Shown piece by piece: positions 2,350-58,153 of a DNA stretch of 63,650 bases. How positions within the stretch are numbered: position 1 is the first letter of the stretch; each line of letters begins with the position of its first letter. Origin of the DNA: a bacterium (GTDB lineage Bacteria > Bacillota > Clostridia > UBA1381); assembly GCA_030536655.1 (NCBI GenBank), contig JAUNPN010000002.1, positions 1 to 63,650 of the forward strand. The letters run 5' to 3'. A program made the position numbers and the translations under genes. The notes below the pieces were generated by a model. It was not told the DNA's origin and ran no database searches. It saw nothing but the letters and a program-made list of their open reading frames with translations.

Positions 2350-4107
<1,758 letters not shown>

Positions 4108-42554: not shown

Positions 42555-45500
42555 TTATTGTGATATGGTCATGCTGCCGGAATATGCTGCCGCCTTTGGC
42601 ATTTGTTCGGGAAGGTTATTCCATACCATGATTTTATAGATATATGCTCCGGCCGGTATTGATGAAACATCAATTTCCGCTGTATTTTCACCGGCTGAGG
42701 CAAAGGATTTCTGTTCTGTCAGGACTTTTACCAGCATACCATTTGTGTTATAAATTGCAGCAATTACGGTTTCCTCGTCATTGTCACCGGTGATAACATT
42801 AAACTCAGGCTGTAATTTTTTTGTTTCCGTGTCGTACCGGCAATCGGTAATTTTAATGTCCATATCGGAATTTTCGGTAAGCTCATATACAGCTACAGTA
42901 CCGCCCACCTCGCATGCAGCAAGAAGAAGCGCATTTCCTGTAGGGCTCTTTTCGGACGGGACAAATTTCAGACCTTCAGGAGAATCATCTGCTCCCAACT
43001 CTGCATCAAAATCACGGCTGTTAATATAATTTACATATTCAACATTTTCAGGGTCGGTAATGTCATAAACCATTACGCCGCCTATGCGTTCAAGCGTAAC
43101 AAACGCATACGTTCTTCCGTCAATAGTTCCTGTTACCACGCTTTCGGGCTCTGGTCCCTTCTTATTGGAACGGTCATCTATGTCAAGGCTGTCGTTTGAG
43201 CAGTTGAAGTAATCGGGCAGATATTGTGCCGTCTTTGATTCAAAATCACTGCCGCTGTCATATACCTGCGTCAAACCGTTTTCTGTTACCTCAAATACTG
43301 TGAATGTGCGTGTGCCGAACAAATATGTTTTATCCGCTTCAAGTCCGTCATAATCTGTATTGTCAAGATATGTTACCTTTTTACCGGTTTCAGCACCGGA
43401 TACAGAAGTAAGTTTTCCGCTGACTTCATTTGTATATTGATTCGGTTTTTCACCCCATTCACGGCTGTCGCCCTCGTTGGCTGTGATAATATATGTCTTG
43501 CCGTTTGCTTCGTAAGTGCTGATGCCGTCCGGCATACGAAGTCCCAGTACATTCTCATAATTATCGGGATTGTATGCTGTATCTCCCTTGTTAAGATCAA
43601 CCTTTACATCTCCGAAATCAACTGTTCCGAGCGGGTATACTCCCGTAAATGCTTTGCCTGCAATATCAAGCACCGCAACAGCGTTAGCTTCCTGCAATGT
43701 AATGTATGCCTTGCTGTTGTCTGCCGCAATATATTCCGGCTCAAGCTCCGCTGCCGGCTCTGCGCCTTTCTTAAGTACTACACCCGCTGCCGCAAGAGTG
43801 TCATGGCTGAAAGCATCAAAGCTGATTGTTGAAGGCGTAAGTGTTGATGTGTCAATTATTGTAACACTTCCTTTCGGGTCAATCGCGGGAGCGGTATAAC
43901 CTTCTCTCGGCTCACCCTCATCTGCTGTAAGAATATGCGCTCCGTCCGGTGTGAAGGTTACCATATCAGGCTGCACGCCTGTTTCGATCGTAGCTTCAAA
44001 TGTAAGCGTGCCGTCATCGTTGCAGGTAAACAGCGCAACACGTCCCTTGTCGCTGTAGCTTTCAGCCTGTACAGCTGCTGCAAGCCTTGTGCCGTCCGGT
44101 GAAATGGCTAAGGATGTCATATCTCCGTATATAAAGGTTTCATCATTTACAAGTGATTTTACATCAATATCATTGCCGTCAAGTAAGTCGATCTTTTCGG
44201 TATCCTCAAGCTTTTTAAGCGGAATCGCGCTTAAAATCCCTGCCTGACCATTGATTGCATATGCCCAGCCTGTTTCCGCATTGTAATCCACGATTTCCAT
44301 AACACCGCCGTCGGCATTGGTCATGCCTGAATCATAGCGCGCAAGCTGTGTAAGCTTAAGGGCGGCACTGCCGTTTTCAAAGCCTTCACTCTGTTCTCCG
44401 CCGTCCTTGTTTTTTGTTACAGTGAATGCGTCAACCTGTTTTGAAGCCGGATTTTCACTGTCACCGTCAAGGTTGTATGCCTTTGCCGATATTGTGTCGC
44501 CGGTTACATCAAACATGACATAGCAGGGACTGTATTCCTGATTATATTCCTGATTTCCTATCGGAAGATAATCTGCCTGATTGTCTGCGGCAGCTCCTTT
44601 CAGATATGCCTGAGAACCCCTTTCGCCGTTTGCGAGCAGCGGATAGTCAATGTTATTTTCCTTGTCAACCTTTTCAAACGGTGTATAGTACTGCATATCA
44701 CTTGCACAGTTGCCTGTGATATATATTGTACCTTCCGGGTCGTTTATGATGTCAAGACGTTCGCTCACTCTTTCACCGCTGCCGTTTAAAACATAGCTTC
44801 GGGAATATACGTGATCATGACCGCCGAGAACAAAATCAACGTCAAAATCCTCCATAAGCTGTTCAAAGCCTGCGTCAACGTAATTTTCTATATCGGAGTC
44901 GGCGGCGTGCTTTGCCACAGTCTGCGTGGATTTATGGTGCGTTACCACTATCCAATTGTACTGCCCATTATAATCCTCCGTTGCGGCACTAAGCGTTTTG
45001 CGGAAATTTTCTACAATTCCGACAGCTTCGTTTTCGGCTTTTGCGCTTTCAAGCTCTGTATTCTCACCGTCAAGCGCATCATTGCCGCCCGGATAGGCTC
45101 CTGTATTCAAGGTTACGAAAAGCACGTTATTATACAGGTAATAATAATTTCCCTCGGTTTCCATTTCACGCCGTTCAACGTAGTCATATCTGCCGTCAGC
45201 GTCAGGTATTACGCCTTTTTCATTTTTAGCACTGCTGATTTCCTCCGCTGTTGCCGCAGTATAGTTACCGTGGCTGAGGCTTGAGCCGTTGTTCTGACCG
45301 CGGAATGTGGTCTTTACTTCGGTAAGTGTCTTTGGGTCATCTGAAGCATCAGCACTTATTTTCATTTCGTTGGGAAGATTGAAATGGTCACGGAACATAT
45401 AGTGGCGGTCGTGATTGCCTACAGCCGGTGCATATGCGATTGAAGCCATTTCAGCAGGCGCAAAAAACGCGTCATACTCGCTCTTTTTGCCCCAGCTCTG

Positions 45501-46070
45501 GTCCTCTACCTGATCACCTGCTGATACAATAAGAGTTGCACCTTCATCCGCAATTTTTTTCATCATAGCCTGCCAACCGGTTTGATTTGTGCCGTCTGAC
45601 GGATTCCAGCCATTGCTGTTGCTTTCGCCGTTTTCCTTAATCTGCGGGTCGCTTGTAAATGCGAAACGGAAGGAATCGCTTTTCGGTGTCTTGTAGGTGT
45701 AATCCTCCGTCCAGCTTTCGCCGTTGTCGTTTGAGAGCTTGTATGTGTACACCGTGTCGGGCTTAAGACTGTCTATTGTCGCCTTGCACACGACATAACC
45801 CGCATATGGATCAGACGCGGAGTCCTTTCCCGTAGGAATCGTCGTGTCGCTTACGCTTGCCGCGTATTCGACTCCATCCATGCTGATTTTCGGTATGACA
45901 CTGTCAGGCTCTCCCTCCGCATACCATGTTACATTGACGGATTCCTCCGTTGCGCCCGGTTGCAGCGTAAGGCTGCTTACAGCCACGGTTGTCTGCGCAT
46001 ATACAGACGGGAATGCTCCCGCCGTCATGGCGGCAGCAATCATCAAAGCCGCTGCTTGTTTCTTATTCAT
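42555..46070 (-). CDS. large secreted metallophosphoesterase / choice-of-anchor I protein
   Basis: The 1171-residue protein has a signal peptide (1-25, ending PSVYAQ), a purple-acid-phosphatase-like N-terminal beta domain (about 30-130), a calcineurin-type phosphoesterase (about 135-540: FTSDPQIKE, SAGDQVEDQ, AVGNHDRHY, VVTHHKSTQ, GGHDHVYSRSY), a choice-of-anchor I beta-propeller-like region (about 570-1060: GWAYAINGQAGILSAIPLKK, ANEGDSREW, GLKFVPSEKSPTGN) and a short C-terminal beta domain. Such enzymes release phosphate from organic phosphates outside the cell. The upstream Pho-box-like array fits this. AAAGGAGATAAAACAGC precedes the ATG. Confidence 0.9.
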   Translation of the reverse strand: MNKKQAAALMIAAAMTAGAFPSVYAQTTVAVSSLTLQPGATEESVNVTWYAEGEPDSVIPKISMDGVEYAASVSDTTIPTGKDSASDPYAGYVVCKATIDSLKPDTVYTYKLSNDNGESWTEDYTYKTPKSDSFRFAFTSDPQIKENGESNSNGWNPSDGTNQTGWQAMMKKIADEGATLIVSAGDQVEDQSWGKKSEYDAFFAPAEMASIAYAPAVGNHDRHYMFRDHFNLPNEMKISADASDDPKTLTEVKTTFRGQNNGSSLSHGNYTAATAEEISSAKNEKGVIPDADGRYDYVERREMETEGNYYYLYNNVLFVTLNTGAYPGGNDALDGENTELESAKAENEAVGIVENFRKTLSAATEDYNGQYNWIVVTHHKSTQTVAKHAADSDIENYVDAGFEQLMEDFDVDFVLGGHDHVYSRSYVLNGSGERVSERLDIINDPEGTIYITGNCASDMQYYTPFEKVDKENNIDYPLLANGERGSQAYLKGAAADNQADYLPIGNQEYNQEYSPCYVMFDVTGDTISAKAYNLDGDSENPASKQVDAFTVTKNKDGGEQSEGFENGSAALKLTQLARYDSGMTNADGGVMEIVDYNAETGWAYAINGQAGILSAIPLKKLEDTEKIDLLDGNDIDVKSLVNDETFIYGDMTSLAISPDGTRLAAAVQAESYSDKGRVALFTCNDDGTLTFEATIETGVQPDMVTFTPDGAHILTADEGEPREGYTAPAIDPKGSVTIIDTSTLTPSTISFDAFSHDTLAAAGVVLKKGAEPAAELEPEYIAADNSKAYITLQEANAVAVLDIAGKAFTGVYPLGTVDFGDVKVDLNKGDTAYNPDNYENVLGLRMPDGISTYEANGKTYIITANEGDSREWGEKPNQYTNEVSGKLTSVSGAETGKKVTYLDNTDYDGLEADKTYLFGTRTFTVFEVTENGLTQVYDSGSDFESKTAQYLPDYFNCSNDSLDIDDRSNKKGPEPESVVTGTIDGRTYAFVTLERIGGVMVYDITDPENVEYVNYINSRDFDAELGADDSPEGLKFVPSEKSPTGNALLLAACEVGGTVAVYELTENSDMDIKITDCRYDTETKKLQPEFNVITGDNDEETVIAAIYNTNGMLVKVLTEQKSFASAGENTAEIDVSSIPAGAYIYKIMVWNNLPEQMPKAAAYSGSMTISQ

Positions 46071-46142: not shown

Positions 46143-46207
46143 ATTATAACACATTTTTAAATTTTTGCTATCGTATTTAGGTAAAATATATTTTAAGTCT
46201 GTGTAAA
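46143..46207 (-). promoter_or_regulatory. Pho-box-like array and -10 box of the phosphoesterase gene
   Basis: On the minus strand hexamers TTTACA, TTAAAA, TTTACC and ACGATA begin every 11 bases (plus 46202-46207, 46191-46196, 46180-46185, 46169-46174), followed after 20 bases by TATAAT (plus 46143-46148). The 11-base period of TTWACA-like repeats is the known form of PhoP/PhoB sites. Confidence 0.55.
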
Positions 46208-46363
46208 GCAAAACAAGTGAGCCTCAGCAAGCCGTAATGAGTTTATATTTAATTCGCTTCTTTTTCCGTATTCTGCGATATTTTTCCGCAATAATATTAT
46301 ACTGTACCGCAGCTTTGCCGTACTGCCCTGATGAGTTAAATTTTGAGTTAAGCCTTTGTAAAA
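46208..46363. other. intergenic region without recognised features
   Basis: The stretch between the two divergent Pho-box-like arrays holds no coding frame. A few T-rich tracts and TATTATACTG near 46296 are visible, nothing more. Confidence 0.4.
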
Positions 46364-46429
46364 TTAACAAACATTTTACTTATGTTTTACGTAATATTGG
46401 TATCAGAATTTAGATCTGTGTGATAAAAT
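46364..46429 (+). promoter_or_regulatory. Pho-box-like array and -10 box before the yibE remnant
   Basis: TTAACA (46364), TTTACT (46375), TTTACG (46386) and degenerate TTGGTA (46397) start exactly 11 bases apart. TAAAAT (46424-46429) follows 21 bases after the last hexamer, the same layout as at 48394-48459. Confidence 0.55.
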
Positions 46430-46496
46430 AAATTTGAATTGAAGCTATCCGCAAAGGCGGAAGATTCATTAAAATCATTTTATTGGAGTGAATATT

Positions 46497-47262
46497 CTGA
46501 AAATTAAAATAAACAAAAGACAATTGATACTACAATGAATACCATGCGCAGTTATTGCAGTTGGATTGATTTTAATGGGTATTTGGCTGCATATTCCGAA
46601 TGAGGATAGTGTGCCGACCGCAGTCAGTCAGATTATATATATTCCGGCAAGAGTTGAGGCAATTATCAGTGATAATACTGAGGAAGACTATGAACATTAT
46701 GAAGGTCAGCGTCAAGGCTCGCAGGAATTGGAGGTAAAGCTTCTGTCAGGCGAACACAAAGGAGAGGTACTCTCTATGACTAACTATCTGGGCGCGCTGT
46801 TTAATGTTGATGTTAAGAAGGATGATCGTGTGATAGTCCGGCTCCATACAAATGAGGATGGCTCCTATTATGTTTCAATGTATAACTATGACAGAGGGGT
46901 TATAATGGGAATCGTTCTGCTTTTATTTGTGGCTGTTCTGGTGGTGCTTGGAGGGAAAAAAGGAGCGCGGGCATTAGCGGGACTGGCGCTTACACTGCTT
47001 TGTATATGGCAGCTTCTGATTCCCGGACTGATTCGGGGATTTTCGGCTTTACCATATACCATATTTTTGGTAGCTGTTGTTACGATAGCAAGTCTTATAT
47101 TACTAAACGGATTTTCTCCCAAAACCTTATGCGCTGCTGTAGGCTGTATCGGCGGAGTCACTATTGCGGCTATGGTGCGGGAATTGTCGGGGTTATTGCA
47201 CCTTTGAACGGCTTTCAGATGACAGAAGCTGAGGATCTGCTGCTTTACGGCGCGGAGCTGAA
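46497..47262 (+). pseudogene. degraded YibE/F-family membrane protein
   Basis: The readable part (AVIAVGLILMGIWL, VDVKKDDRVIVRL, GVIMGIVLLLFVAVLVVLGG, ALAGLALTLLCIWQLLIPGL) matches YibE/F multi-pass proteins. It is broken: the start appears as CTG behind TTGGAGTG, an in-frame TGA stands at 46536 between KRQLILQ and IPCAVIAVG, and a frameshift near 47200 moves the continuation (GFQMTEAEDLLLYGAELN) into another frame. The C-terminal half of the family is gone. Confidence 0.75.
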
Positions 47263-48097
47263 CCGTATATCTGCAATTGAAGGCTATGTAACAAGCGGAA
47301 CAGCAGATAAGAATACGACATTCTTCGATGCTGTTTATGTACAGGACAAAACCGGTGGAATCACAGTATTCCCATATTCTCAAACCGGTCTTGAAATAGG
47401 CACAAAGGTGCGTATTACAGGTTATACGGATGAATATCAGGGAGACAAAGAAATACAGATTCTCTCTGTTGAAATTCTGGATGACGATCCGTACAGCTAT
47501 GAACCGAAACTGCTGACTACGGCGCAGGCAACGGATTATGACACATACGGCGGACAGTTAGTCAAGGTTTCGGGAACTGCGAGTGATATTATCAAAGAAA
47601 ACGGAGTTGTTTCGCAGTTTAAGGTTATAGACAGATCAGGCATTGCAGCAACAGTATTTATTGATGGATACATAACCAATGCAAGCGGTGTAAACGATAT
47701 AGGGAATTGGCTCATTGACGGAACAGAGGTTGAAGCTGCGGGTCTGCTTTATAAGCACCCGGAGGGCGGTTCGGACGTGTCAGTACCGGTATTGTGTGTG
47801 CGTAACTGCGATGAAATAATCTCTGATGGCTCTCCGTCAGACCGCGCTTATACATTAACATACGATAACGGTGCAGTAACCGTAACCGGGTCTGAGGCTG
47901 TTGCATGAGAATATGTGCTGATAGAGGCGGTCTATAACGATGACGGCAGCTTGAATAAGTTAATTACATATCCTGTAACGACTGTTAATACTCCTATACA
48001 GGTCAGCACTGACTTTAATGACGGAAATGTTAAATTCATGCTTTGGAACAGCTTGAAAGGAATGACACCAATGGCTGACGCGGTGGGAATAAAATGA
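47263..48097 (+). pseudogene. C-terminal fragment of a secreted surface protein joined to yibE
   Basis: From about RISAIEGYVTSGTADKNTTF the frame encodes an OB-fold-like domain (GTKVRITGYTDEYQGDKEIQ) and a second beta domain, then an in-frame TGA at 47906 and a tail (YVLIEAVYNDDGSLNKLITY through KFMLWNSLKGMTPMADA) typical of the C-terminus of large secreted clostridial proteins. It starts in the middle of yibE without a start codon, so a deletion or recombination joined two genes and both decayed. Confidence 0.65.
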
Positions 48098-48137
48098 TTA
48101 TTTTGGATGCGGCAGAATGTGTGCAAAAATAGAACCA

Positions 48138-48212
48138 TGAAATGACCTGTTTCCCCTATGTCATTTCAGCTTAATGATAACAGCCCTATTCAACGTTGAA
48201 CAGGGCTGTTGT
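48138..48212 (+). terminator. paired hairpins after the remnant genes
   Basis: TGAAATGAC/GTCATTTCA (48138-48168) and ACAGCCCTATTCAACGTTGA with its complement half (48180-48210, arms ACAGCCCT and AGGGCTGT), followed by TGTTGT. Confidence 0.6.
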
Positions 48213-48393
48213 TGTATGATGGGAATGTTGTAAATCAGTACTGCGACTCTGATGACTTGGGTATGCGGAAAAAGAGGGTGTAACAAAATCCGCATCTTTG
48301 CTATACCCTCTTATACGTAAAGCGAGTGTAAAGGAAGCACAGACTGAGCAATGCTTTCTAAATTATTTTGCGTTGCAAGTTGCAATATGTGCA

Positions 48394-48459
48394 TTTACAT
48401 AGAATTAACATGACATTTACATTGTCTTGATAGCTATAAAAAAAATAAAGTGTTATACT
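48394..48459 (+). promoter_or_regulatory. Pho-box-like array and promoter of the phosphate/polyphosphate operon
   Basis: TTTACAT (48394), TTAACAT (48405), TTTACAT (48416) and TTGATAG (48427) start exactly 11 bases apart. TATACT (48454-48459) follows 21 bases after the fourth hexamer. The three first repeats fit the PhoP consensus TT(A/T)ACA very well, and the genes behind handle phosphate. The leader from here to 48634 (about 170 bases) has no recognised RNA element. Confidence 0.75.
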
Positions 48460-48633: not shown

Positions 48634-50322
48634 ATGATGAAGGAAGTATTACAAACAATATTCGGACTGCTTGGAGGACTGGCAGTTTTCATATTCGGAA
48701 TGAATATGATGAGTGAATGTCTGCAAAAGGTGGCAGGGGAAAAGATGAAGAAAATTCTTGCCCTGCTCACCAAAAATCCTGTTCTTGGCGTTATAGCAGG
48801 AGCGCTTACAACAGCGGTATTGCAGAGCAGCAGCGCAACAACGGTTATGGCGATTGGCTTCGTAAGCGCGGGACTTATGACGCTTCCCCAGGCAATATCA
48901 ATAATCCTCGGTGCGAATATCGGTACTACGATAACAGCGCAGATTATTGCTTTTAAAATCACTGATTACATATATGCTTTTATATTTGTAGGTTTCATTA
49001 TATATTTTCTTGCAAAATCAGAAAAGCTTAAAAATATCGGTCAGACACTTTTTGCATTCGGCCTTTTGTTCTTAGGAATTGAAACGATGGGCAGTGTCAT
49101 GAAGCCTCTTGCGTCAAGCCCTGTATTTACAGATATGATTGCAAAGGTTGCCGGTATTCCTGTGCTTGGAGTGGCTGTAGGAACTCTTATGACTTTGGTT
49201 GTACAGAGCAGCAGTGCGACTATTGCGGTTTTGCAAAACTTTGCGTCACAGGCGGGCGCAGACGGAGTTACAAGTATTCTCGGACTTACGGGCGCAATTC
49301 CTATTCTGCTCGGTGACAATATCGGTACAACAATCACAGCACTGCTTGCAAGTGTAGGTCAGCCGAAAAACGCAAAACGAACGGCTGTTGCACATTGTAT
49401 TTTTAATATTTCGGGCTGTCTGCTGTTCATATGGTTTATACCGTTCTTTGCCGAATTCATTCGATGGATTTCACCGAAGGGACCCGAAATAGAGGTTATC
49501 TCGCGTCAGATTGCAAACGCTCATACTACATTCAATGTGGTTATGACGCTTATATGGATGCCGCTTATATGGCTGATGGTGAAAATTGTAATGAAGCTTA
49601 TTCCTGACCAAAAATACGGTGAAAAAGATACAAACAAGCCTATATATCTTGATGATAAGCTGATATCACAGCCTGCCGCAGCACTTCACCTTGTATCGAA
49701 GGAGATCATACACTGCGGTGATATTGTTGGTGAAATCCTGCTTGATACGATAGATGCTGTTAAAGAGGGCGGAAAGAAACAGCTTGAATTAATTGTGGAA
49801 AAAGTGGCTGTTGCACGAAGTCTGAATGACGATATTACGGAGTACCTTGCCGAGCTGTTCGCATCAGGTGTGCTTACAGAGGAACAGGCAACTCAAACGG
49901 CAGGCATAATGCACGTTCTTAGCGATATTGACCGCATAGGCTCATTGAACAGCGAAATTGCCGATAATCTGAAAGCAAACATGGAGCGCAAAAAGAAATA
50001 TTCAAAGGATGCACTGAAAAATCTGCAAAACGCGCTTTCCATGATTGAAGAAATGTATTCGGGAGCACTTCATATTATGAAAAATGAACCCGGCATAACG
50101 GATATTCTGAACAAGAAGGAAAACGTCCTTGACATTGATATAGATATGCGGAAGGGGCATATGAAGCGTGTCGCCAAGGGTAAATGTGACGCTAATCTTA
50201 CTGCGTCCTTTAATAGTATTCTTCACATCATTGACCGTATGGGCAATAACTGTGTGAATATTGCAGAAGCGGTAACAGGTCCTGTCAGCTTTGACTATTT
50301 CACAAGTCTGGATAAACAATAA
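48634..50322 (+). CDS. Na+/phosphate cotransporter with PhoU-like C-terminus
   Basis: The 562-residue protein has two Na/Pi cotransporter repeats with the paired motifs LQSSSATTVMAIGF (about residue 67) and VQSSSATIAVLQNF (about 190), GANIGTTITAQ and GDNIGTTITALL, at least eight membrane helices up to residue 320, and a helical PhoU-like C-terminal domain (about 345-540). NptA-type proteins import phosphate with sodium. AGGAGAAATTA precedes the ATG. It leads an operon with CorA and PPK1. Confidence 0.93.
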   Translation: MMKEVLQTIFGLLGGLAVFIFGMNMMSECLQKVAGEKMKKILALLTKNPVLGVIAGALTTAVLQSSSATTVMAIGFVSAGLMTLPQAISIILGANIGTTITAQIIAFKITDYIYAFIFVGFIIYFLAKSEKLKNIGQTLFAFGLLFLGIETMGSVMKPLASSPVFTDMIAKVAGIPVLGVAVGTLMTLVVQSSSATIAVLQNFASQAGADGVTSILGLTGAIPILLGDNIGTTITALLASVGQPKNAKRTAVAHCIFNISGCLLFIWFIPFFAEFIRWISPKGPEIEVISRQIANAHTTFNVVMTLIWMPLIWLMVKIVMKLIPDQKYGEKDTNKPIYLDDKLISQPAAALHLVSKEIIHCGDIVGEILLDTIDAVKEGGKKQLELIVEKVAVARSLNDDITEYLAELFASGVLTEEQATQTAGIMHVLSDIDRIGSLNSEIADNLKANMERKKKYSKDALKNLQNALSMIEEMYSGALHIMKNEPGITDILNKKENVLDIDIDMRKGHMKRVAKGKCDANLTASFNSILHIIDRMGNNCVNIAEAVTGPVSFDYFTSLDKQ

Positions 50323-50325
50323 TAT

Positions 50326-51243
50326 ATGAAATACATTTTAAACAGACGCTTGTCAGCAGTTGAGGGAAACTGCATAAATCCGGGTGAAACTATTGTTGAG
50401 ATAATATATTCGGATGAATATGATAAAAGATACAGGAACGAGTATCATCATGAGGTGCTTATGGAAAACCTGAAAAGCATACAGTATTGCAAGGTGGAAA
50501 TGCTCAGAAACTGTATAATAGGCACTCTGCTTATACCTGATAAGGATAACCTTACAGACGGCGAATTTGGATTGGGATTTTACATACATAAAAATCATCT
50601 TGTTTTTATAGACGATACCATGAAAATGAAGGCGGTGCTTGAAAATCTTCCGGAAATCAAGTCGCCCGAAAATACACCTGCGGCAAGATTTTTCCTTGAA
50701 TTTCTGGAATATATAGTCAAGGACGATGTAATATTTCTTCAGAAGTATGAGGATAAGCTGGTGGCGATCGAGGAAGAGCTTCTGGATAATGATATTGATG
50801 ATTTTCACAGGGAGATACTTAAATGCCGCAGGGAAATACTCGTGCTTAACTCCTACTATCAGCAGCTTATGGACATGGCAGAAAGCATGAGCGAGAACAA
50901 GAATTATATTTTCAATCACGAGGACTGCCGCCTTTTCAACGTGTATGAGGAACGTGTTGAGCGTATGTATGACAACACAAAGCTTCTGCGCGAATATACA
51001 ATTCAGATGCGTGAAATGTATCAGTCACAGATAGATATATCGCAGAATCAGACGATGAAGGTGCTGACGGTATTGACGGCAATATTTTCGCCGCTTACAC
51101 TTATAACGGGTTGGTATGGGATGAATTTCAGCGTCATGCCCGAAACAGCATGGAAATACGGCTATTTACTTGCCGTGGTGATCTGCATTATAGCCGTGAC
51201 AGCGGAAATTATATATTTTAAAAAGAAAAAATGGTTTGATTGA
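50326..51243 (+). CDS. corA: CorA-family divalent metal transporter
   Basis: The 305-residue protein has a long cytoplasmic N-terminal domain with coiled coil (about 120-235) and two C-terminal membrane helices, with the loop motif WYGMNF (GMN, about residue 267) that forms the channel mouth. It moves Mg2+ or related ions. It starts 3 bases after the transporter stop, so it is co-expressed; Mg2+ is the counter-ion of polyphosphate, which fits the operon. Confidence 0.93.
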   Translation: MKYILNRRLSAVEGNCINPGETIVEIIYSDEYDKRYRNEYHHEVLMENLKSIQYCKVEMLRNCIIGTLLIPDKDNLTDGEFGLGFYIHKNHLVFIDDTMKMKAVLENLPEIKSPENTPAARFFLEFLEYIVKDDVIFLQKYEDKLVAIEEELLDNDIDDFHREILKCRREILVLNSYYQQLMDMAESMSENKNYIFNHEDCRLFNVYEERVERMYDNTKLLREYTIQMREMYQSQIDISQNQTMKVLTVLTAIFSPLTLITGWYGMNFSVMPETAWKYGYLLAVVICIIAVTAEIIYFKKKKWFD

Positions 51244-51372
51244 CGGATGGTTTGATTGATGAATAGATTTTTGCAGTTTATAAAAAGATTAATAAAATAT
51301 AGAGCATTAATGGGCAGACCCGCTCATGAAGAAAAAATGCCCGATATACAAAATAAAGGAGAGATTTTTAAT

Positions 51373-53430
51373 ATGTCACAGAGTTATTATCGTAACAGGG
51401 AGCTTTCATGGCTGGATTTTGACAAGAGAGTTTTAGAGGAGGCGCAGGATCTGAACAATCCGCTTTGCGAACGCATGACCTTTGCTTCTATTTTCAAGAG
51501 CAATCTGGATGAGTTCTTTATGGTACGTTTCGGTATGCTGCATGACAGTATGCTGTTTTCAAAAAATCCGAGAGAAAATAAAACAAATATGACGGCAAGC
51601 GAACAGATTGATGCTGTTCTTGATAAGACGAGAGAGCTGACTGCTGAGTGTGACAAGACCTTTGCGGACATTATGACTGACGCGGAAAAGCAGGGTATTA
51701 AGCTTGTGAATTTCAAAAGCCTTACAGAAGAACAGGCAATGGCTGTGGAGGATTACTTCAACAAAGAAATAAAGCCGCTTCTGTCGCCGCAGATTGTCGG
51801 CAAAAGACACCCGTTTCCGTTTTTAAAAAATAAGGAAATATATGTGCTGGTAACGCTTAAAACAAAAAATAACAATGAAAAAATAGGTATTGTTCCATGC
51901 GGCAGCAATGTTTTTAAGCGTCTTATTCCAATTAACGGCATAGACGGAGTTTTCATGCTTGCGGAGGAATTAATTCTGCATTATGCGGCTAAGGTGTTTG
52001 ATAAATATAAAGTCAAAGAAAAAACCTTGATGCGCATAATCAGAAATGCCGATATTGATACGGAGGACGCTTATAATGATGAAGAAAATTACCGCGATAT
52101 GATGGAGCGCATCATAAAACAGCGCAAAAAGCTTTGTCCGATTAAGCTTGAGCTTTCAAGAAAAATAGACGACAGCACCGTAAAAGCAATGAGCGCAAAT
52201 CTTGACCTTACAGCAGACAGAGTGTTCTATTCCTCAATCCCGCTTGATTTGTCATTTGTGTTTGATTTGCAGAATTATCTCAGTGACAAAAAGGAGCTGT
52301 TCTATTCTCCGAGAGTTCCGCAGAAAACTCCTTTTGCGGATAATAAGGAAAGTATGATTGCGCAGATCAAGAAAAATGATATACTTCTTTCATATCCGTA
52401 TGAGAGCATGAAGCCGTTTTTCAGACTTCTGAGTGAAGCGGCAAATGACGATGCTGTCGTATCTATAAAAATGACATTGTACCGTGTGGCAAAGTATTCA
52501 AAGATAGTGGAAACGCTTATTGAAGCGGCGGAAAACGGCAAGGAGGTTGTCGTTCTTGTTGAGCTGCGCGCAAGATTTGATGAGGAAAATAATATAGAAT
52601 GGTCAAAACGCCTTGAGGAAGCAGGCTGTAGAATTATATACGGTCTTGAACATCTGAAGGTACATTCCAAGCTGTGTCTGATAACAAGGAAAGAAAACAA
52701 CTCGATAGAATATATTACACAAATCGGTACGGGAAATTATAACGAAAAAACCTCAAAGCAGTACACAGATTATTCTTTAATGACTGCGTCTGCGGATATC
52801 GGCATGGAGGCTGCTAATGTCCTGAACGAGCTTGCTATGGGGCAGGTTGTAGAGCGTACAAAGCATTTGCTTGTCGCACCTAAGTGCTTACAGAATAAAA
52901 TCCTCGCAATGATTGATGAAGAAATCGCAAAGGCAAAGGAAAATAAGCCTGCCTATATCGGCGCAAAGATAAATTCGCTTACTGATAAAAAGATTATTGA
53001 CCGACTTGTCGAAGCATCACAGGCAGGAGTGAAAACAGAATTGATAGTAAGAGGTATATGCTGTCTTATTCCGGGTGTTCAGGGTTACACGGATAATATC
53101 ACCGTAATAAGCATTGTCGGAAGATACCTTGAACATTCAAGAATTTACATATTCGGAGCGGAGCCGGATTGTAAGGTATATATAAGCTCCGCGGACTACA
53201 TGACGAGAAATACGCTCCACCGTGTAGAGGTAGGTGTGCCTGTTTATGATGAAAGACTGAAAATACAGGTGCTTGAAATGTTTAATATAATGCTGGACGA
53301 TAATGTAAAAGCAAGGCGTCAGATGCCTGATTCAACATATGTCAAGCTTCATTCCGATAACGCCCCGCTGAACTCGCAGGAGTATTTCTATAATAAAGCA
53401 TATAAAAATGCACCTCAATCTAAAAACTGA
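51373..53430 (+). CDS. ppk: polyphosphate kinase 1
   Basis: The 685-residue enzyme makes polyphosphate from ATP. It has the N-terminal RELSWLDFDKRVLEEA segment, FKSNLDEFFMVR, and the phospholipase-D-like catalytic halves with LEHLKVHSKLCLI (phosphorylated His) and QIGTGNYNEKTSKQYTDYSL, and a second His region near SSADYMTRNTLHRVEVGVPV. AAAGGAGAG lies before ATG 51373; a frame starting 39 codons earlier adds an atypical leader. It ends the Na/Pi-CorA-PPK operon. Confidence 0.95.
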   Translation: MSQSYYRNRELSWLDFDKRVLEEAQDLNNPLCERMTFASIFKSNLDEFFMVRFGMLHDSMLFSKNPRENKTNMTASEQIDAVLDKTRELTAECDKTFADIMTDAEKQGIKLVNFKSLTEEQAMAVEDYFNKEIKPLLSPQIVGKRHPFPFLKNKEIYVLVTLKTKNNNEKIGIVPCGSNVFKRLIPINGIDGVFMLAEELILHYAAKVFDKYKVKEKTLMRIIRNADIDTEDAYNDEENYRDMMERIIKQRKKLCPIKLELSRKIDDSTVKAMSANLDLTADRVFYSSIPLDLSFVFDLQNYLSDKKELFYSPRVPQKTPFADNKESMIAQIKKNDILLSYPYESMKPFFRLLSEAANDDAVVSIKMTLYRVAKYSKIVETLIEAAENGKEVVVLVELRARFDEENNIEWSKRLEEAGCRIIYGLEHLKVHSKLCLITRKENNSIEYITQIGTGNYNEKTSKQYTDYSLMTASADIGMEAANVLNELAMGQVVERTKHLLVAPKCLQNKILAMIDEEIAKAKENKPAYIGAKINSLTDKKIIDRLVEASQAGVKTELIVRGICCLIPGVQGYTDNITVISIVGRYLEHSRIYIFGAEPDCKVYISSADYMTRNTLHRVEVGVPVYDERLKIQVLEMFNIMLDDNVKARRQMPDSTYVKLHSDNAPLNSQEYFYNKAYKNAPQSKN

Positions 53431-56378: not shown

Positions 56379-56846
56379 ATGATAGAAAATAATGCTTTTA
56401 TGGAACAGTTAAACCAATTCTATACTTTGTGACAAGAATACAACTATGTATATGAGGAGTGGGCAAAAGCGCAAGGGTTATCCGTCAACAGCCTGTTAAT
56501 TTTATATGCTATTTATGAAGATGGAGAGGATTGCACACAAAAGAAAATAAGTCAAAAATGGCTGATACCCAAGCAAACCACCAATATGGTATTGAAAGAC
56601 TTTGAACAAAAAGGGTTTGTTGAATTGTCCCCTATGTCAGAGGACAAAAGAAATAAAGTTATTTGTTTTACAGCGACAGGAAAAGAATATGCAGACACAA
56701 TCATTTCCAAGCTACGAAAAGTGGAATTGTTTGTAATAGAGAAAATGGGAATTGAGCGTATGAAGCAGTTAAATGACAGTACGGCTTTATTTGTAGAGCT
56801 TTTTCGTAAAGCGGGAGGTAAACAAGATAATGAAACAAATGCGTGA
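56379..56846 (+). pseudogene. MarR-family regulator with an in-frame stop
   Basis: AGGAGGAGTAACT precedes the ATG at 56379. The frame encodes a MarR regulator (YVYEEWAKAQGLSVNSLLIL, KWLIPKQTTNMVLKDFEQKG, SEDKRNKVICFTATGKEYAD) of 155 residues, but codon 18 is TGA (56430-56432) in FYTL-stop-QEYNYVYEEW. A Trp codon there would differ by one base. Re-initiation could yield only a piece without the first helix. It overlaps the MATE gene it would control. Confidence 0.82.
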
Positions 56847-58153
56847 TATAAAAACTTTCTTTCGGTATGTTATCCCATCTGTGTTATCCTTTGCATTATC
56901 AGGAGTGTATGCAATCGTAGACGGGTACTTTGTCGGAAACAGTATGGGGGATATTGGTCTGTCGGCAGTTAATATCGCTTATCCCATTGTCGCTGTTATT
57001 CAGGCATTGGGTACGGGAATAGGTATGGGCGGCGCTATTTACTATTCTATCAATAAAGCAGAGGGAAAGGAAAAAGAAGCCGGAGAATTTACAGCAGGCG
57101 CCTTGTGGGTGTTAATTATTGCAAGCGCAATATTAACGTTTTCAATATTCTTTCTGAACAATCCGCTTTTACGGTTATTAGGAGCAGAGGGCAGTCTGCT
57201 TTCTTTGGGGGAGGAATATATTGCTATTATTGCCTTGGGTGCAGGTCTACAAATTATCGGTACAGGACTAATTCCGTTTATACGTAATCACGGCGGTTCA
57301 TTTTATGCTATGTTTGCTATGGTTGCAGGATTTATAACAAATATTATACTTGATTATCTGTTTGTGTGGGTGCTTGGACAGGGTGTTGAAGGTGCAGCGA
57401 GGGCTACTGTAATCGGTCAAGGTATTACTATGCTGATTGCATTGATTTATTTACTGCACAAAAAAACAGTTTACACTGCGTATCCCGTTTTCAAAAATTG
57501 GAAAAGTATATGCTTCTATTTTTAAAATAGGAATCGCGCCTTTTGGGCTTGCGATGACGCCAAATATTTCATTGATAATTATAAACAGTTTTTCTATATC
57601 ATACGGCGGCGAATCGACAATCGCCACTTATGCGTGTATTGGTTATATCATTTGTATTATATATTTGATTTTACAGGGTGTCGGCGATGGAAGCCAGCCG
57701 CTAATCAGTAAATATTACGGCGAAAGAAATTTTGATAATATGAAAAATATACGGAAATTGGCATGCGGTTTTGCCTTGCTGCTATCTTTAATTGGCTGTG
57801 CGGTTATGTATATAACAAGAGAAAAACTTGGAATATTATTCGGAGCATCAAGCGAAGTAAATACGGAGATTTCAAAAATAATACCGATATTTTTGATGTC
57901 AGTTCCCTTTGTTGCAATAAACCGTATTACAACCGCAAGTTTTTATGCAACGGAAAAAAGCGCATTTTCTTATATTCTAACATTTATAGAGCCATTTTTG
58001 ATGTTGGTTTTAATGCTTATTCTGCCACCGTTATTCGGCGGTCAGATTATGATTTGGTGGAGTACAGTATTTGCAAGAATTTTATCTGCTATCTTAGCCT
58101 TAATTCTGAAACAGCGTGTTGATAAAGGAGAAATGACATTATGCAGCACTTAA
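56830..58153 (+). pseudogene. MATE-family efflux transporter with a frameshift
   Basis: The first frame (56830-57525, 231 residues, MRDIKTFFRYVIPSVLSFAL) and second frame (from about 57492 to 58153, KIGIAPFGLAMTPNISLIII to QRVDKGEMTLCST) are the two halves of one ~440-residue MATE drug/sodium antiporter. A single-base change in the A-rich TTTCAAAAATTGGAAAAG at about 57492 separates them. A sequencing or assembly error is possible in this homopolymer. With the MarR gene it forms a typical regulated efflux pair, now broken. Confidence 0.85.

Follow-up and report, generated by a model that had tools for sequence, protein, structure and literature searches.

The window, by which we mean the whole stretch of 63,650 bp that was analysed, contains three candidate promoters, P1, P2 and P3, whose coordinates are collected in Table 1 together with those of the genes behind them. 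P1 lies upstream of a secreted phosphoesterase of 1171 aa, P2 upstream of the remnant of a yibE gene, and P3 upstream of an operon which encodes a Na/Pi symporter, a CorA-family transporter and a polyphosphate kinase. A strong hairpin situated between the remnant and P3 is possibly a terminator or an insulator. Elsewhere in the window (56830-58153), a MatE transporter appears split into two open reading frames, 56830-57525 and 57554-58153, and is perhaps frameshifted.

Table 1. Coordinates and main characteristics of the features discussed.
Feature	Coordinates	Strand	Characteristics
Secreted phosphoesterase	42555..46070	-	purple-acid-phosphatase N, Metallophos and choice-of-anchor I domains; motifs GNH, THH, GGHDH
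P1, putative Pho promoter of the phosphoesterase	46143..46207	-	TTTACA-5-TTAAAA-5-TTTACC-5-ACGATA-20-TATAAT; TGT before -10
P1 boxes	46207-46202, 46196-46191, 46185-46180, 46174-46169	-	-10 TATAAT at 46148-46143
P1b, tentative second array	46296..46362	-	TTTACA-5-TTAACT-5-TTTAAC-5-AGGGCA-22-TATAAT; 2 mismatches to the class-A pattern
P2, putative Pho promoter before the yibE remnant	46364..46429	+	TTAACA-5-TTTACT-5-TTTACG-5-TTGGTA-21-TAAAAT; TGA before -10
P2 boxes	46364-46369, 46375-46380, 46386-46391, 46397-46402	+	-10 TAAAAT at 46424-46429
yibE remnant, 5' part of a YibE_F gene	46566..47207	+	first ~90 of 241 profile positions only
Secreted OB-fold/DUF5689-like remnant behind the yibE part	47000..48100	+	DUF5689 below its cut-off
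Hairpin between remnant and P3	48174..48215	+	-23.6 kcal/mol, z -4.6; without a good T tract
P3, putative Pho promoter of the Na/Pi operon	48394..48459	+	TTTACA-5-TTAACA-5-TTTACA-5-TTGATA-21-TATACT; TGT before -10
P3 boxes	48394-48399, 48405-48410, 48416-48421, 48427-48432	+	-10 TATACT at 48454-48459
Na/Pi symporter with C-terminal PhoU domain (NptA type)	48634..50322	+	
CorA-family transporter, Na/Pi operon	50326..51243	+	
Polyphosphate kinase (Ppk1), Na/Pi operon	51256..53430	+	

Each of the three promoters carries three TTWACA-like hexamers at 11-bp steps, with TTWACA on the coding strand, followed by a fourth element and by an extended -10 region in which a TGN triplet precedes the hexamer. 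The hexamers, their 11-bp period and the distances of 20, 21 and 21 bp to the -10 which had been reported in the initial annotation all proved exact on re-reading the letters, and its description of four TTWACA-like hexamers per promoter holds for the first three. The fourth element fits TTWACA at only 2 (P1), 3 (P2) and 4 (P3) of its 6 positions and has G(A/G)TA as its common part, and is hence referred to here as being of the nnGRTA type. Measured from the last TTWACA box, the -10 is reached after 31 bp in P1 and after 32 bp in both P2 and P3. A scan with a sigma-70-like consensus returned 7 sites in the region, where 8.2 were expected from shuffles, and no sigma-70-type promoter ending at the -10 of P1, P2 or P3; their classification as sigma-A promoters was rejected on these grounds. 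In addition, a weaker fourth array, P1b, stands back to back with P2 and is aimed at the phosphoesterase, which could thus possess a tandem promoter.

The gene behind P2 is degraded. The yibE remnant has an in-frame stop upstream and lacks the usual start codon in the expected place, and is fused to the OB-fold-like remnant, the 3' end of a gene for a secreted protein, which contains a further in-frame stop near 47907. The possibility that the two in-frame TGA codons are read by an alternative genetic code was considered and rejected, since TGA ends 6 of the 18 larger open reading frames of the window and thus shows no sign of reassignment. YibE is absent from all 40 relatives searched, so that no YibE match other than the remnant was obtained from 41 genomes, the own one included. 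YibE was also rejected as a general gene of the Pho regulon: when 30 YibE loci taken from other parts of the class were scored against the three-box array (maximum 18, see below), a single one reached 15/18 and none 16/18. YibE genes elsewhere do not carry Pho arrays, and the gene behind P2 is therefore not a usual Pho target. Taken together with the in-frame stops of the remnant, this argues that P2, judged from its letters, is an intact-looking promoter of the Pho type that has outlived, or was left without, a working gene.

The rarity of the arrays was assessed by scoring three boxes at a fixed step against TTWACA, with a maximum of 18. At a step of 11 bp, four arrays with at least 16/18 were found on both strands of the window, namely P1, P2 and P3, the last of which counts double since its fourth element reaches a score as well. 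Dinucleotide shuffles of the whole window (n=100) yielded a mean of 0.06 such arrays, and other steps (7-10 and 12-19) yielded none, with the exception of two at step 9. When the two intergenic stretches were shuffled 5000 times, three such arrays never arose (0/5000). When up to 2 mismatches over the three boxes are allowed, the whole genome (3.49 Mb in 266 contigs) yields 20 places, compared with 9 for the reversed pattern, and the only perfect match is P3. Some of the other three-box matches were inspected by eye: those on contigs C160 and C17 resemble ordinary sigma-A promoters with TTGACA ~17 bp before a -10-like hexamer; one on C59 (L007, 575), in which TTTACA-5-TTTACA is followed by TATTAT 31 bp on, precedes an HtrA-like gene and is a weak Pho or WalR candidate; and one on C191, before a TrkH-like gene, is likewise a weak candidate. 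A stricter pattern, termed class A, joins three TTWAC units to GRTA; it was written after P1-P3 and the relatives were known and does not include the 21-bp spacing. With at most 1 mismatch it detects P1, P2 and P3 alone in the own genome (reversed control, 0), while at up to 3 mismatches its 26 places against 36 in the control are noise. The genome-wide search with this pattern reveals no further promoter of the exact design of P1-P3 in this genome.

A candidate regulator is encoded on contig C173, which was found via a search for the PhoU family. There, pstS, two permease-like genes, an ATPase-like gene, phoU, a response regulator and a histidine kinase follow each other in one direction (pstC, pstA and pstB were named by eye, the other genes by profile). 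The best NCBIfam model for the response regulator is PhoB TIGR02154, with 218.6 bits and thus below the cut-off of 296.2, and the best model for the histidine kinase is PnpS (PnpS/PhoR-like), with 309.2 and below the cut-off of 400. The pstS gene of this operon is preceded, in the same orientation as in P1-P3, by the promoter TTTACA-5-TTAACA-17-TTAACA-10-TATAAT, in which 33 bp separate the last adjacent box pair from the -10; genome-wide, this three-box pattern occurs without mismatches at pstS only. Directly upstream of the response regulator gene itself there is no array. The other regulator that was inspected, on contig C243, is YycF/WalR-like.

The same box recurs before phosphate genes of related bacteria. 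Of 30 fetched pstS loci, 17 were scanned (L161-L177), and the upstream regions of 9 of these carry TTWACA-5-TTWACA-16/17-TTWACA with 17-18 of 18 letters matching. These nine, the own gene and 8 from relatives, are the top nine by E-value; the 8 weaker pstS-like matches (L170-L177), which are mostly partial, contain no array. For the symporter, a set of 80 loci from named genomes, the nearest being Hespellia, was used. Within 350 bp upstream, 31 of 79 loci (one upstream region was too short) reach 15/18 at step 11, while the other steps (7-10 and 12-19) give 0-3 loci each, the reversed sequence none and the opposite strand 2. When whole operons were considered, with two further box layouts allowed in both groups and all 80 loci used, 48 of 80 symporter operons reached at least 16/18, whereas among 720 other genes of these loci only 5 did so, the two strongest of the latter arrays preceding PhoB-like response regulator genes. 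No array at 16/18 was found in the remaining 32 of the 80 operons. In another pass over the symporter loci, 7 of 80 lacked a gene call. Among weaker symporter relatives from the own family and order, 8 of 29 loci (L132-L160) reach 16/18. The enrichment of the motif before phosphate genes, on which the initial annotation had made its proposal depend, is therefore observed.

The phosphoesterase has a patchy distribution: a search of 61 genomes including the own retrieved a full-length relative (71% identity) in 1 of the 60 related genomes, G041, which belongs to another genus of the family. Its promoter, TTTACA-5-TTTACC-5-TTTACT-5-CGGATA-21-TATAAT, repeats the design of P1 with different spacer letters (locus L037 was lost to this comparison at a contig edge). 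The symporter, for its part, shares 73% identity with a protein of Hespellia, while full-length matches in 40 nearer relatives do not exceed 38%, and its gene may have been acquired by horizontal transfer. In relatives, Pho arrays also stand directly upstream of genes for PhoB-like regulators (L087 near 15419, L098 near 11441, and L239-L241), which suggests that these putative regulators are autoregulated.

The distance between boxes and -10 is conserved as well. Downstream of 54 distinct adjacent box pairs found upstream of symporter genes, a TAnnnT hexamer with 4 or more of 6 letters is located at 31 bp in 19 cases and at 32 bp in 21 (40 of 54), the next commonest spacing accounting for 8. 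Since P1-P3 show 31, 32 and 32 bp, the fixed distance that the initial annotation had read from three promoters is shared, and extends beyond the own genome. A search of 100 relatives for the class-A pattern with at most 1 mismatch gave 11 matches beyond those of the own genome, where the reversed control gave 7; taken by itself, the pattern is thus enriched to a modest degree only. However, in 6 of the 11 a TAnnnT follows at precisely 21 bp, a distance on which the search had placed no condition, whereas every other spacing occurs at most once. These six precede three PhoB-like response regulator genes (identified by visual inspection of the translated sequences), one symporter, the phosphoesterase and one secreted protein.

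Seen together, the promoters fit a common grid on which boxes end near 10, 21, 32, 43 and 54 bp from the -10. The own pstS occupies positions 10, 33 and 44, while P1-P3 occupy 32, 43 and 54 (31, 42 and 53 in P1), with nnGRTA at 21 (20 in P1) and no convincing element at 10. In a set of 44 symporter arrays that have their -10 in place, GATA or GGTA stands at 21 in 10 of the 13 that possess the distal box and in 5 of the 31 that do not; many of the ten are related promoters and thus do not represent ten independent events. A uniform nnGATA element in the -35 position is possibly new. It is conceivable, and we advance it tentatively as something rather less than an even chance, that the own genome and its relatives use a distinct Pho subtype for symporter, phosphoesterase and phoB-like genes, with boxes at ~54, 43 and 32, an obligatory nnGATA at -35 and no strong box near the -10, while pstS keeps the classical layout. 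The two layouts could then set different thresholds for phosphate in the same regulon, and nnGATA would be a specific contact, either a weakened half-site or a docking site for polymerase, and not a decayed box.

These observations point to P1-P3 as Pho promoters of the PhoB/PhoP family which, very probably, are driven by the regulator pair of C173 and jointly induce phosphate genes. The single PhoP/PhoB-type activator that had been postulated for the three promoters is the best-supported reading, given the same box at the own pstS and in 8 relatives, its frequency at symporter operons and the conserved distance to the -10. Under phosphate scarcity, the histidine kinase of C173 would phosphorylate the response regulator, whose dimers would bind head-to-tail to the TTWACA half-sites, stepped by 11 bp and therefore presented on one face of the DNA. 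With the last adjacent pair of boxes ending 31-32 bp before the -10 and the nnGRTA half-site filling the -35 position, the bound regulator would place RNA polymerase on a -10 of the TGN-TATAAT type that has no usable -35 hexamer. As a result, release of phosphate by the phosphoesterase, import by the Na/Pi symporter and storage by polyphosphate kinase would be induced together. Binding, phosphorylation, activation and the response to phosphate are extrapolated here from what the cited parts of work on the family describe (PMC4415409; PMC4913102; PMC13170248).

That the repeats arose by chance in the AT-rich intergenic DNA which surrounds ordinary sigma-A promoters would agree with the abundance of loose class-A matches, and is barely credible in view of the shuffles, the step control, the contrast between symporter operons and other genes, the conservation of the distance to the -10 and the corresponding promoter of the orthologue from another genus; conservation already contradicts it, unless the conservation is itself an artefact of how loci were selected. 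Head-to-tail repeats of 11 bp are general in the OmpR family, many members of which bind such repeats, and the PhoB-like regulator of this genome scores below the curated PhoB cut-off, so that a response regulator of this family other than the one in the pst operon might use the sites. We regard this as highly improbable, as the own pst operon is preceded by the same box, and so are, in relatives, the 8 best pstS matches and PhoB-like regulator genes.

Only slightly more credence is due to the proposal that the arrays are sites of WalR/YycF, which remains very unlikely. The genome does encode a YycF/WalK pair, and the published WalR consensus is TGTWAH-N5-TGTWAH (PMC4168254, in the part cited). 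Moreover, a TGTTAA...TGTAAA array in the opposite orientation precedes the own yycF (L115 about 3800-3860, contig C243), and the repeat in this orientation before the YycF/WalR-like gene is what WalR autoregulation would lead one to expect. Yet orientation is fixed in the arrays discussed here: of 79 upstream regions of the symporter, 31 reach 15/18 when TTWACA is read on the coding strand and 2 when it is read on the other. Their targets are pstS, symporter, phosphoesterase and PhoB-like regulator genes, with no cell-wall hydrolases among them. At P1-P3, neither a coding-strand TGTWAH nor a target in cell-wall metabolism was found, and WalR was rejected as their regulator on orientation and targets combined; the cited part of PMC4168254 includes WalR sites on both strands, so orientation alone is not an absolute argument.

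A PhoB/PhoP-type activator therefore remains our preferred reading, and what is met here, in an uncharacterised genome, is a known switch. The value of the analysis lies in a definition, at the level of sequence, of phosphate-starvation promoters for a poorly studied family and for the symporter operons of Lachnospiraceae. As symporter, polyphosphate kinase and secreted phosphatase would come under one regulator, release, import and storage of phosphate form one predicted circuit. The nnGATA element and the two layouts, furthermore, raise the concrete question of how an activator of the PhoB family replaces the -35 contact.

Among known systems, the core binding region of PhoP in B. subtilis consists of four TT(A/T/C)ACA repeats with gaps of ~5 bp, extending from about -60 to -22. 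P1-P3 share its half-site, its step and the number of its units, and like it they lie on the coding strand, upstream of the -10. They depart from it by one more distal box, which ends 53-54 bp before the -10, and by the lack of a good box that ends ~10 bp before the -10; it is the own pstS that has the B. subtilis layout. Four TTWACA boxes of the B. subtilis kind were rejected for P1-P3, their fourth element being nnGRTA. A count of four is not strict in the wider Pho family, as the own pstS has three boxes and the pneumococcal site two. In searches of the literature on Pho boxes of Clostridia or gut Firmicutes, the promoter design of P1-P3 was not found.

Two direct repeat units of 11 nt per dimer also make up the pho box of PhoB in E. 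coli, where, in contrast to P1-P3, the half-site is CTGTCAT (PMC4415409, in the part cited). The WalR/VicR box, TGTWAH-N5-TGTWAH, has the same letters on the opposite strand and the same 11-bp step, and differs from P1-P3 in orientation and target genes, as far as the cited parts go (PMC4168254; PMC9210968). In S. aureus, pst and nptA require PhoPR, so that an NptA-type Na/Pi symporter with a PhoU domain is there, too, placed under a phosphate two-component system; unlike nptA in the part of that study cited, the present symporter shares one operon with corA and ppk, and its control is predicted from sequence (PMC13170248). The Pho box of PnpR before pstS1 of S. pneumoniae, TTTACACAATCTTTACA, offers a further parallel, combining a TTTACA-N5-TTTACA direct repeat, identical to P1-P3 in half-site and step, with a phosphate-transport gene and a regulator of the PhoB family (PMC4913102). 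Compared with this site, as given in the cited part of that paper, P1-P3 possess three boxes plus nnGRTA, one of them precedes a pseudogene, and their targets are a Na/Pi-corA-ppk operon and a phosphoesterase (PMC4913102).
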